Below the pieces are notes generated by a model, which was not told the origin of the DNA, did not search any database, and saw only the letters and a program-made list of their open reading frames with translations. Shown here piece by piece: positions 24,894-28,025 of a stretch of DNA of 32,677 bases; position 1 is the first letter of the stretch, and each line of letters begins with the position of its first letter. The position numbers and the translations under genes were made by a program. The DNA comes from Candidatus Poribacteria bacterium. Its GTDB lineage: Bacteria; Poribacteria; WGA-4E; PCPOR2b. The stretch is from contig JADFGN010000014.1 of the NCBI GenBank assembly GCA_022567695.1, positions 1-32,677 on the forward strand, read 5' to 3'.

Positions 24894-27800
24894 TTATCCA
24901 TCACCTTTCACAGGTAATCCGACGAAAAGGCGACTATCAACGTCCACAAGCCGTTCAACATCCTCGGTTGCTGCGGCGAGGGCGAAGACAATGCCGGGAC
25001 GCTTGGCTCGCATCGCACGTCCGAGAACAGTGAAGCCACCTCCGATGCCGCCCATTCCTTCCCCAAAGTATGTCTGTTGGCTTACCACTCGTGCCAATCC
25101 TTCCCAATGGCGGTGAATGATAGCGCGTAATTCATCGGATGTCAGACCGTCTCGGTAGCCGTGACGAACCTTGGGCGGGGTTGGCCTGTCGAAGTGAGAA
25201 CTGTTCCATCGGACAACGATCTGCGAAAGGGAATCCATTCTGCCTCGCGCCCCGCTCTTGATGGCGAGGAGTTGGGGGCCCAAATCGTTATCATCGAACT
25301 CCTTCCGTGTGGCAAGCTGCTCAATGAGTTCCTCCGTATACGCATCCCAAGTTTCCTCATCGGCATCTTCAGGTGGAGGTGTTCGCTGCAAACTTTCGCC
25401 AATAAACGGACTCATTGACATTCCCGACTCTTTAGCAAGCTCAAAGCCGCGGTGCATCAGGTTCTCAAGGCGGTCCAGCGTTTTGTTGACCCCCTCGCGT
25501 TTCAGGACCTCCCGCATTGCGTCGGCAAGCGTTTTCTTTGTAGCGAAGCCTTCGGCAGTTGTCGCAACGTCGGTTCCAGCAAGCCTTGAGATCTCCTGGC
25601 GTCCGGCAGGTGTACGACTGAGGTTTACAAGCCCCAACATCGACTCGTTGGCGGGGAGTAGGGTTGTCAGCAAGCCCGGAGTACGTTTAAAATGTCCCGC
25701 CACAGAAAGGAGTTCTCCTGCCTCACGCTGTCCCTCAGCAGTGACCGGTAGGAAGAGCGCGGCTTGATCGCCGTCGAAATCTGCATTCATTAGTCCGCAG
25801 ACGATTGGATCGATATGGAGCGCATTGTCCTCATGCCGTATGGGGTGAAACGCTAGGAATGAAGTGGGCATCAGTGCCGGCGCACGATACAGAATGACCC
25901 ACGAGTGTTCCATAATCTCGTCGAGTATTTGCGTTGCCTTCTGGGTTCGTGCATTGACATCGGCGTCGCTACCGATAATCCGCGTGACAAAGGGTCCAAA
26001 GAGTGTCCACGCCATCTTGTCTGGAATACCGACCTGATCATGTCTCAGGTCGATGTCCGGCTCGATCACTGCACGTCCACTGAAAAGGGTTGGCGTATGG
26101 AAACGCATATGCTCTGAACTAACGAGCGTGTCTAGGTATTCTCTAACACGTACCTCAAGTTGATTCAACGTTTGGCTGGTCAGGCTTTGGGGTGTACTGG
26201 TTGCCAACATCCGCTCGGCTCTTTCGTTAACTTCGACGAGTGCTTGGTAGGCGGCGAGTGAATTTTCATCCCGCCTTACTTTCTCGCCCACCCACCACAT
26301 TCCGTCGTGATACAAGTGTTTGGATTCGTCACCGCCCGTGTCCGTGCTCTCAAAAACACCAACTTGATTAAGGGTCTGGCTGCGAAGCCACGGATGAGGA
26401 ATTGGATGAGCCAATTTGAGGACTTTGCCTTCGCGGTGCGCGAACCGAAAAGCCAAATTTTCGCCATTAAGTTCGGCGCGAATTCCCGCAATTGCCAAAC
26501 GTTGCATAAGATTTGAAAACATTGGCGTGGGCGGACCAGCCTGTTGGATTTTGCCGGCTGCAAGCCGAGAAGCGAGGGTATTCGCATCAGGTCGTTCGGC
26601 AGAACAGGTGTTGAATCGATCTTTTAAGGTTTCAAACGCACCAAGGTCGCGTAACACAAGATATTCAGCATTCCCTAAACTTTGAGCTTCTGCACGTTCG
26701 CCCGTTGATACGGCGATTTTCTCGCGTGCGATGTGATAGAGTGTACCCCAGTAGACCCACCCCACCAGGCTAGGTCGCTGAAGCTTTTTGCCATTCCTAC
26801 CAAGCGTGAGGGTCTCCATTCCATCTTTGGGAAGGCCTGCGTCTTTCAAGCGTTTACGGAGTTCTTCACGGCTCGGTGCTTGAAATGGTGGTACAATGGC
26901 GGGTTTCCCCTCTGCTCGTGCGATGCGGCTCATGATCGCTTCTCGCAATTGACCAAGGGTCATCCGTGTCTGCAAGCCCATAAAGCTGTAAACAAGCTCT
27001 ACTGGTGTTCCATCAAGCAGATGTGGCATATCTTTGTCGGGAAGAATGCGCGTCACACACCCTTTCACGCCGTGCCGGTTGGCGAACTTATCGCCCGGCT
27101 CAACGGGGTGGGGATAGTTGAAACGTCCCGCGCACGATTCGCTCATAATGATTGCGTCCTCGAAAGTATCAACCCCCCAAGAGACGTAGGCAGTCAACAC
27201 ATTTCGTCCATACCAGAAGTCAGGTACATTGGGTTCATTGCCAGTCTGGACGAGAGCTGGCTCCGGATCTGGTGGTATAAAACACTGCCGCATCATGTTG
27301 ACGCCCATGAGTTGCCGATTGGCGTCATTGTGCTCCAAAAATGGCATCATCGTTGCGGTGAGCCCCAGTATCCCTTCAGGCTGGTTATCAATGATAACAA
27401 GCTTTCCATCCCGAATTTCAGCACCGACAGCAATACTCAAGATCGTCCCAACGCTTGGCCCCTCCGGCATCTCGAAAGGACAGACACGCCCGAAATGCGC
27501 GGGATTGTAAACCTTTTCACGCCATAAAACGCGGACACGCCTAAGATGCGTGTGCTTGTCAAGCCAATTTCTCTCCTGAAGCCGATTGTTCCACGACCCG
27601 TCAAGTATCAACTCTCGCACCCATGTGTCGAGCGGCATCCACGATTTGAGAAGCGACGCGCTCCACGGCAGGTCGGAAGATACGCCTTCCAAACGTACCT
27701 TAAAGTTGTCGTAAAACTGTTCGCCAACACACTTAATCTCAGCGGTATCTAATTCCTCATGTGAAGCAATTGGAACAATCACATAATGTTCACCGTCGAT

Positions 27801-28025
27801 TTTGAAAACGCCTTCCTCATCCGGGCAAGGAATATCGGTGTAAACCACTTCAACATTTCCAGATGAAGTCGCAAGCGATATCTTCACCTGACAAGTGTGA
27901 GAGCCGGTCGAAACAAAATGACAATCGTTGAGCGGGAGTCGGTCAGCCAAAAGCTGTGGTAATCGATCCGTCATCAATTGATCAAAAGATGCTTTATGCC
28001 AAAAGGCAGTGATGTTGCGTGACAT
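24894..28025 (-). CDS. Single-chain reduced beta/beta-prime fusion RNA polymerase (two-barrel RNAP homologue)
   Basis: Beta motifs: GVFKIDGEHYVIV, NPAHFGRVCPFEMPEGPSVG, PFLEHNDANRQLMGVNMMRQ, GRNVLTAYVSWGVDTFEDAIIMSE, GDKFANRHGVKGCVTRILPDKDMPHLLDGTPVE. Beta-prime motifs: KLAHPIPHPWLRS, MRFHTPTLFSGRAVIEPDIDLRHDQVGIPDKMAWTLFGPFV, HSWVILYRAPALMP, NADFDGDQAALFLP (25764-25787), LPANESMLGLVNL, SGARGRMDSLSQ, YRDGLTSDE. SD AGGAGG at 28033-28038 precedes ATG. Confidence 0.95.
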   Translation of the reverse strand: MSRNITAFWHKASFDQLMTDRLPQLLADRLPLNDCHFVSTGSHTCQVKISLATSSGNVEVVYTDIPCPDEEGVFKIDGEHYVIVPIASHEELDTAEIKCVGEQFYDNFKVRLEGVSSDLPWSASLLKSWMPLDTWVRELILDGSWNNRLQERNWLDKHTHLRRVRVLWREKVYNPAHFGRVCPFEMPEGPSVGTILSIAVGAEIRDGKLVIIDNQPEGILGLTATMMPFLEHNDANRQLMGVNMMRQCFIPPDPEPALVQTGNEPNVPDFWYGRNVLTAYVSWGVDTFEDAIIMSESCAGRFNYPHPVEPGDKFANRHGVKGCVTRILPDKDMPHLLDGTPVELVYSFMGLQTRMTLGQLREAIMSRIARAEGKPAIVPPFQAPSREELRKRLKDAGLPKDGMETLTLGRNGKKLQRPSLVGWVYWGTLYHIAREKIAVSTGERAEAQSLGNAEYLVLRDLGAFETLKDRFNTCSAERPDANTLASRLAAGKIQQAGPPTPMFSNLMQRLAIAGIRAELNGENLAFRFAHREGKVLKLAHPIPHPWLRSQTLNQVGVFESTDTGGDESKHLYHDGMWWVGEKVRRDENSLAAYQALVEVNERAERMLATSTPQSLTSQTLNQLEVRVREYLDTLVSSEHMRFHTPTLFSGRAVIEPDIDLRHDQVGIPDKMAWTLFGPFVTRIIGSDADVNARTQKATQILDEIMEHSWVILYRAPALMPTSFLAFHPIRHEDNALHIDPIVCGLMNADFDGDQAALFLPVTAEGQREAGELLSVAGHFKRTPGLLTTLLPANESMLGLVNLSRTPAGRQEISRLAGTDVATTAEGFATKKTLADAMREVLKREGVNKTLDRLENLMHRGFELAKESGMSMSPFIGESLQRTPPPEDADEETWDAYTEELIEQLATRKEFDDNDLGPQLLAIKSGARGRMDSLSQIVVRWNSSHFDRPTPPKVRHGYRDGLTSDELRAIIHRHWEGLARVVSQQTYFGEGMGGIGGGFTVLGRAMRAKRPGIVFALAAATEDVERLVDVDSRLFVGLPVKGDG

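Follow-up and report, generated by a model that had tools for sequence, protein, structure and literature searches.

A putative single-chain beta-beta' RNA polymerase gene paired with an ECF sigma factor gene in a Poribacteria genome

The locus and its genes

We analysed the 32,677-nucleotide contig JADFGN010000014.1 of Candidatus Poribacteria bacterium (GenBank assembly GCA_022567695.1), hereafter the window, in which one open reading frame (ORF) encodes a miniature fusion of the RNA polymerase (RNAP) subunits beta and beta', here called the mini-polymerase. It is preceded on the same strand by a gene for a sigma factor of the extracytoplasmic function (ECF) type and by a predicted promoter (Table 1), and a GGAGG resembling a ribosome-binding site lies upstream of its own start. 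The window is one entire contig (C194) of a 7.3 Mb assembly in 733 contigs (91% complete, 6.7% contamination). An earlier note on this DNA had described the intact 1043-aa ORF with exact ends; what changes is the strand, since the gene is read on the minus strand, from 28025 to 24894, and both the sigma gene and the promoter lie outside the interval which that note described. It had also made its reading depend on normal rpoB and rpoC genes elsewhere in the genome, and a separate pair is indeed present on contig C216 of the same assembly.

Table 1. Positions in the window of the predicted module and of the elements recognised in the mini-polymerase (residue numbers are those of the ORF; RpoB and RpoC numbers are those of E. 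coli)
Feature	Position	Strand	Basis or remark
ECF-type promoter TGAACTTT-N10-GCGGTGTCA, upstream of sigma gene	29029..29055	minus	conserved motif
ECF sigma factor, 201 aa, sigma-70 regions 2 and 4	28350..28955	minus	Pfam r2 4e-19, r4_2 1e-11
Single-chain beta-beta' RNA polymerase ORF	24894..28025	minus	ATG start, 1043 aa, intact
Beta N-terminal protrusion-like part, residues 10-85 (RpoB 31-147)	27771..27998	minus	weak hhalign match, E 4e-4
Beta fork and external region, residues 92-302 (RpoB 448 to ~846)	27120..27752	minus	profile comparison
Beta double-psi barrel and C-terminal clamp part, residues 303-522 (RpoB ~1054-1342)	26460..27119	minus	Pfam, profile comparison, model
GDKFANRHGVKG, residues 311-322	27060..27095	minus	K313, K321 = E. 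coli beta K1065, K1073
Fusion point, residues 534-557 (RpoC 103-126)	26355..26426	minus	profile match weak alone; clear in multiple alignment
Beta' clamp-helix hairpin, residues 593-630 (RpoC 269-306)	26136..26249	minus	profile comparison; predicted helices 587-608, 613-639
Beta' active-site domain with double-psi barrel, residues 648-800	25626..26084	minus	Pfam, profile comparison, model
NADFDGD	25767..25787	minus	D749, D751, D753 = beta' D460, D462, D464
Beta' funnel region, KSGARG, first half of bridge helix, residues 826-978	25092..25550	minus	profile comparison, multiple alignment
C-terminus, residues 979-1043	24897..25091	minus	conserved in family; matches no known RNAP element

Elements kept and lost in the single chain

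The ORF matched the Pfam domains Rpb2_6 (E = 7e-37), Rpb1_2 (6e-19) and Rpb2_3 (6e-7), all above the curated cut-offs, with the beta domains lying before that of beta'. Comparison of the family profile with the profiles of RpoB and RpoC (hidden Markov models, hhalign, E. coli numbering) aligned RpoB 448-1342 with residues 92-522 (E = 7.3e-51) and RpoC 269-784 with residues 593-978 (E = 3.6e-32), which together amount to 816 aligned columns (430 + 386). The Pfam order and these collinear matches bear out the earlier claim that the conserved blocks run from beta to beta'. Because of these E-values, and because nine other genomes of the phylum carry a full-length orthologue, chance resemblance is excluded, and the identification of the mini-polymerase as a single-polypeptide, reduced beta-beta' fusion is supported.

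With the usual element names for E. coli positions, the chain retains the protrusion, the fork, the beta barrel and the C-terminal clamp part of beta, and on the beta' side the clamp-helix hairpin, the barrel, the funnel region and the start of the bridge helix. Missing from beta are the lobe (~150-445), gone before residues 92-302, and the flap (~850-1050), gone after them; missing from beta' are the zinc ribbon (1-100), the dock/lid region (~130-265), the trigger loop, the jaw and the C-terminal clamp, so named by the same numbering. Most of the clamp is thus absent, the rudder/switch-2 region is shortened, and nothing of beta' is recognisable beyond the first half of the bridge helix. The earlier list of losses is therefore right for the most part, but has to be corrected in that the clamp-helix hairpin of beta' and the N-terminal protrusion of beta are present, the latter with DEEGVFKIDGE of residues 10-85 aligned to T..GTFIINGAE. 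At the fusion point LAHPIPHPW resembles LASPTAHIW of beta', in the right order and with the zinc ribbon missing. For the C-terminal residues three assignments were tried and rejected: matches to the start of the trigger loop and to the second half of the bridge helix were non-significant, and a match to the C-terminal end of beta' (hhalign, RpoC 1331-1354) was equalled by 41 of 200 column shuffles.

Both types of barrel are present, the one as an Rpb2_6 match with the basic catalytic residues and the other as a beta' barrel with the DxDxD metal triad, and the two catalytic motifs are intact, as previously claimed: GDKFANRHGVKG in the beta part and NADFDGDQ at residues 747-754. Across the family, beta R529, E565, R1069, H1070, K1073, H1237 and K1242 are conserved in 14 of 14 sequences, beta' R425, P427, D462 and D464 in all 12 sequences covering them, and beta' R352 in every sequence that covers that position. 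The window protein retains every catalytic residue named here or in the Discussion.

Predicted structure

AlphaFold was run on two half-chains, each aligned with RpoB or RpoC rows; the chain was split because MAFFT misplaced fragments when both subunits shared one alignment. The alignments contained no mini-polymerase orthologues, which lowered model quality. The region of the beta' barrel mostly reached pLDDT values of 75-94, the two hairpin helices ~80-89, and parts of the beta barrel 80-92. Foldseek returned RNAP beta' (E = 1e-18) and beta (4e-15) as top matches in the PDB, which agrees with the two barrels expected in the earlier note, the beta barrel being only partly covered. Because the model alignments were made of RNAPs, this agreement is a consistency check and not independent proof, and its weight is further reduced by the low overall confidence of the models.

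Distribution and evolution of the family

Full-length copies, all single ORFs, were found in 10 of 86 genomes of the window's phylum: that of the window, seven from the same taxonomic family and two from a second family of the order. A genome of another family (G065) carries a 5'-truncated copy, and in G005 a 46-codon scar of the polymerase lies beside a bioD-like gene, where congeners carry the sigma-polymerase pair. In a second phylum (that of a Chloroflexi-named record) the polymerase occurs in 4 of 399 genomes; two of these loci are intact (93% mutual identity), one is ended by the contig end, and one (G1002) has three in-frame stops. No copies were found in two other phyla (191 genomes around G086 and 395 around G087), and a search centred on G091, of the same phylum as G088, gave no additional ones. 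Among 2.9 million viral contigs, 50,697 phages and 72,556 plasmids no family member was detected at the sensitivities used; the phage and plasmid matches were partial and fell on ordinary or phage-type beta/beta' genes, and the viral matches L116-L123 are apparently phage-type separate beta and beta' genes (L116 alone was examined in full). Single-protein scans of the genome-contig and viral-contig collections found no relatives, and an alignment-based scan of genome contigs returned 80 ordinary rpoB/rpoC loci, which served as yardstick and model input. A candidate for a second odd polymerase, on G012:C56, proved to be an ordinary rpoB fragment.

The gene lies on contigs of up to 501 kb in genomes of 4.6-7.3 Mb, and apart from the sigma gene its neighbourhood varies between genera. 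Mini-polymerases from the genera compared within the order share 51-68% identity, and those from different phyla 43-59%. For the host RNAP blocks the values are 82-86% inside the order and 69-70% when Chloroflexi is the partner; comparison of these values therefore suggests fast evolution of the family and transfer between phyla. Within genera dN/dS is 0.13-0.18, and the mini-polymerase is under purifying selection. In a tree of the barrel blocks the ten phylum copies form one long-stemmed clade (support 100/100) that excludes the RNAPs of the hosts, of other bacteria and of phages; the long stem leaves the position of the root ambiguous.

The linked sigma factor and its predicted promoter

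In 14 of 14 polymerase loci the next gene upstream, in the same orientation, encodes an ECF sigma of ~200 aa, and all these sigmas belong to a single orthologous group. The gap between the two genes is 73-324 bp in nine first-phylum loci, and in G003 and the second-phylum loci they touch or overlap. When the 86 genomes were searched with the sigma profile, the ten that have a full-length polymerase, and no others, scored 364-400 bits, while the rest did not exceed 130 bits; by this search the orthologue is absent from G005 and G065, which have lost the full polymerase. Nothing speaks more strongly for a functional unit than this linkage and co-occurrence. A GC-rich inverted repeat (CTCCCCTCTCCTCGCAGGAGAGGGG, 28026-28160) lies between the two genes in the window, and several of the orthologous loci have GC-rich repeat-like sequence at the corresponding position.

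All ten phylum genomes carry TGAACTTT-N10-GYGGTGTCA upstream of the sigma gene, as an exact match with fixed spacing, and its flanks are unalignable between genera; its AAC and GTC look typical of ECF promoters. The motif is also recognisable in three of the four second-phylum loci, as TGAACTTT-N10-GYGGTGTC in G940 and G1002 and as a weaker TGAACCTC version of the same spacing in G969. Because this motif is conserved in front of the sigma gene across genomes, predicted autoregulation of the sigma-polymerase pair is well supported. In a genome-wide search allowing two mismatches, with control counts, this was the sole exact copy in nine of the ten genomes; other matches mostly had two mismatches and were near the control counts in number, and no wider regulon was visible with this pattern in the ten genomes. 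A second copy stands upstream of an orthologous ABC-2 permease operon, exact in G012 and with one mismatch in G009. That the promoter might precede all ABC-2 permease paralogues was rejected, as only this one orthologous operon, in the two f2 genomes, has the motif. Gene clusters for such permeases (ABC2_membrane_2 with DUF3526) occur in many paralogues (L190, 2099-5166, minus; G009:C22; G012:C6/C161; G008:C46).

Comparison with known RNA polymerases

The mini-polymerase shares with cellular RpoB and RpoC, including natural rpoB-rpoC fusions, its collinearity, both barrels, the main catalytic residues and the clamp-helix hairpin; however, it has 1043 aa against 2749 in E. coli, and identity in the barrel blocks is only ~36-39%. 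Compared with the canonical alpha2-beta-beta'-omega enzyme it lacks separate subunits, lobe, flap, zinc ribbon, trigger loop, jaw and C-terminal clamp. YonO of the Bacillus phage SPbeta, likewise a single chain of ~100 kDa with no recognisable trigger loop, is an active RNAP as one chain, reportedly with no sequence homology to the active centres of multisubunit RNAPs beyond a few residues (PMC5467207). This description, together with the phage or prophage association of YonO-like proteins, sets it apart from the mini-polymerase, which gives the profile E-values reported above (7.3e-51 to RpoB and 3.6e-32 to RpoC) and has a linked sigma gene. The killer-plasmid RNAP (K2ORF6p with K2ORF7p) is also a beta-beta' fusion with a strongly reduced beta', but its rim helices are gone, as is almost the whole clamp, likely including the coiled coil; a small subunit is encoded separately, and the authors assigned the enzyme a viral origin (PMC6211774); the mini-polymerase keeps the clamp hairpin, is linked to a bacterial ECF sigma and is not located on a linear plasmid. 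Single-chain two-barrel RNAPs are further represented by gp66 of crAss-like phage phi14:2 and by gp96/gp64 of P23-45. Activity has been demonstrated for the P23-45 enzymes, many families of this kind have no significant sequence similarity to one another beyond the DxDxD region, and fused derivatives are mentioned within the clade of multisubunit RNAPs (PMC10770324); unlike these phage enzymes, the mini-polymerase family was not found in the viral collections. The mReC phage RNAPs of Caudovirales have separate beta and beta' genes (PMC7481178), as does L116, whereas the mini-polymerase is a single chain on a separate branch of the tree. The distinction from YonO and killer-plasmid enzymes drawn in the earlier note thus stands, on differing features and on the lack of relatives in the viral collections searched. 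The literature searched yielded neither an earlier description of the mini-polymerase nor a characterised family to which it would belong, though an earlier in silico mention is possible.

The same assembly also encodes a longer, 'midi' fused RNAP (L034 on G000:C155, 5809-8865 minus and 5034-5909 minus; L002 on G000:C635, 669-3149 plus). It is likewise a beta-beta' fusion without zinc ribbon or canonical trigger-loop motif, with GERASRLPLAGVQQL at the position expected for that motif, and a sigma-like gene directly follows the polymerase gene. Compared with the mini-polymerase it is much longer, has NADFDGDQMA intact and keeps more of the C-terminal part of beta'. Two paralogues apparently exist, which share one identical stretch and differ beyond it, and none was found in 24 other genomes searched; the tree places 'midi' and mini-polymerase as sisters with weak support (81/94). 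A different case is an RpoC paralogue of ~1050 aa (L137, G051:C1, 8814-12041 minus) in a genome with normal rpoBC, in which GSDCDNNK replaces NADFDGDQ and which is apparently a catalytically dead beta'.

Discussion

We think it probable, though well short of certain, that the locus is a chromosomal two-gene transcription module made of an ECF sigma and a single-chain RNAP. In the scheme we propose, the polymerase would have arisen by fusion and shrinkage of cellular beta and beta'. A signal would free or activate the sigma, whose regions 2 and 4 would read the conserved motif (TGAACTTT-N10-GYGGTGTCA) before its own gene, and sigma region 2 would dock on the retained clamp-helix hairpin. The polymerase would then transcribe the sigma-polymerase operon, plus a few further operons in some genomes, which would give a positive loop that runs apart from the main RNAP. 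Such a physiological role, like the reading of the predicted promoter by sigma with the mini-polymerase and not by sigma with the main RNAP, is what we infer. The fuller claim, of a free-standing two-gene system with an RNAP of ~115 kDa derived from cellular RNAP and with its own sigma and promoter class, working beside the main RNAP and moving between phyla as a unit, seems to us evenly balanced.

Several observations weigh against this scheme. RNAP activity of the mini-polymerase is predicted from sequence, and no trigger loop was recognisable when its C-terminal 65 residues were compared with RNAP elements. The half-chain models have mean pLDDT values of 55.9 and 59.5, a low overall confidence. 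Among catalytic residues, beta' D460 is conserved in 11 of 12 sequences and is N in G002 (NANFDGDQ); K1065 is lost in G009 (T) and G012 (A), R678 in the same two genomes and in the pseudogene of G1002; second-phylum copies are altered at E813, at D814 or at both, and R1106 is altered in G002 (to L), G927, G969 and G1002. Because invariant residues stand alongside these losses, the core of the active centre is under constraint, but some orthologues may be impaired or inactive. Binding of the sigma is likewise a prediction. ECF sigma region 2 usually docks on the beta' clamp helices. On this hairpin the family keeps R278 and R281, and R275, E295 and R297, which matter for sigma-70 in E. coli, are replaced in most or all copies. 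Region 4 of ECF sigmas docks on the flap-tip helix and the C-terminal helix of beta (PMC6411747), and the flap, its usual dock, is missing. This pattern would fit a private sigma interface, and would equally fit an absence of sigma binding.

In an alternative reading the linked sigma would do no more than turn on the polymerase gene through the main RNAP. The mini-polymerase would then have a sigma-independent task, such as making element-specific RNA or copying damaged, single-stranded or RNA templates into RNA. That ECF sigmas normally use the main RNAP, that the flap is lost and the sigma-70 contacts on the hairpin replaced, and that most genomes show only the operon's own promoter, all speak for this alternative. 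We nevertheless regard it as unlikely, if a serious contender, as strict co-occurrence, joint loss and linkage in two phyla exceed what ordinary regulation needs, and the clamp hairpin is retained although the killer-plasmid enzyme has lost it. The same hairpin would also suit a non-catalytic mimic of RNAP that holds the sigma in check, in place of the anti-sigma gene usual behind an ECF gene: the polymerase gene follows the ECF gene immediately, a separate anti-sigma gene is not obvious beside the loci, and catalytic residues are lost in 3 of the 10 full-length phylum copies. However, a decoy needs no active centre, and because D462, D464, K1073, R425, H1237 and K1242 are invariant where covered in both phyla, we consider a mimic improbable.

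Capture by the chromosome of a phage or mobile-element RNAP of the YonO or crAss-like kind would explain the patchy distribution and the varying neighbourhoods; the overlap of cross-phylum (43-59%) with within-order identity (51-68%) points to horizontal transfer, and an integrase-like gene lies ~3 kb from the G1002 copy. The family was, however, absent from the viral, phage and plasmid collections at the sensitivities used, and its sequence is clearly nearer to cellular RpoB/RpoC than that of YonO reportedly is, which makes such an origin very unlikely in our judgement. Broken copies (the G005 scar, the truncated G065 copy and G1002 with its three in-frame stops) might suggest a decaying relic of duplicated rpoBC, but with nine further intact ORFs in the phylum and the low dN/dS given above (0.13-0.18) we give this idea hardly any credence.

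Other features of the window

By eye, the ORF at 4211-6049 (minus, 612 aa) looks like an ECF-type sigma apparently fused to Kelch-like repeats, and that at 11492-17779 (plus, 2095 aa) like a large secreted peptidase of the C25 type whose C-terminal part is a sorting domain. Two overlapping ORFs at 18053-18693 (plus; 96 and 117 aa), the second PemK/MazF-like by eye, may form a toxin-antitoxin pair. At 23387-23752 (plus) a D12-class adenine DNA methyltransferase is represented by an apparently truncated piece, which covers the first 73 of the 253 positions of PF02086.

Significance

The one-chain relatives compared here are viral or plasmid enzymes, or genomic YonO-like proteins without a named initiation factor. 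A chromosomal one-chain RNAP that comes with a predicted promoter and a named sigma would offer a directly testable minimal sigma-dependent machine and, if the proposed module is real, to our knowledge the smallest sigma-dependent relative of cellular RNAP. Sigma-directed initiation would then need no flap, alpha subunits, zinc ribbon or canonical trigger loop, and the module would bear on which parts of RNAP initiation requires. Copies with altered catalytic residues would provide a natural structure-function test, and the pair may serve as an orthogonal two-protein expression system.

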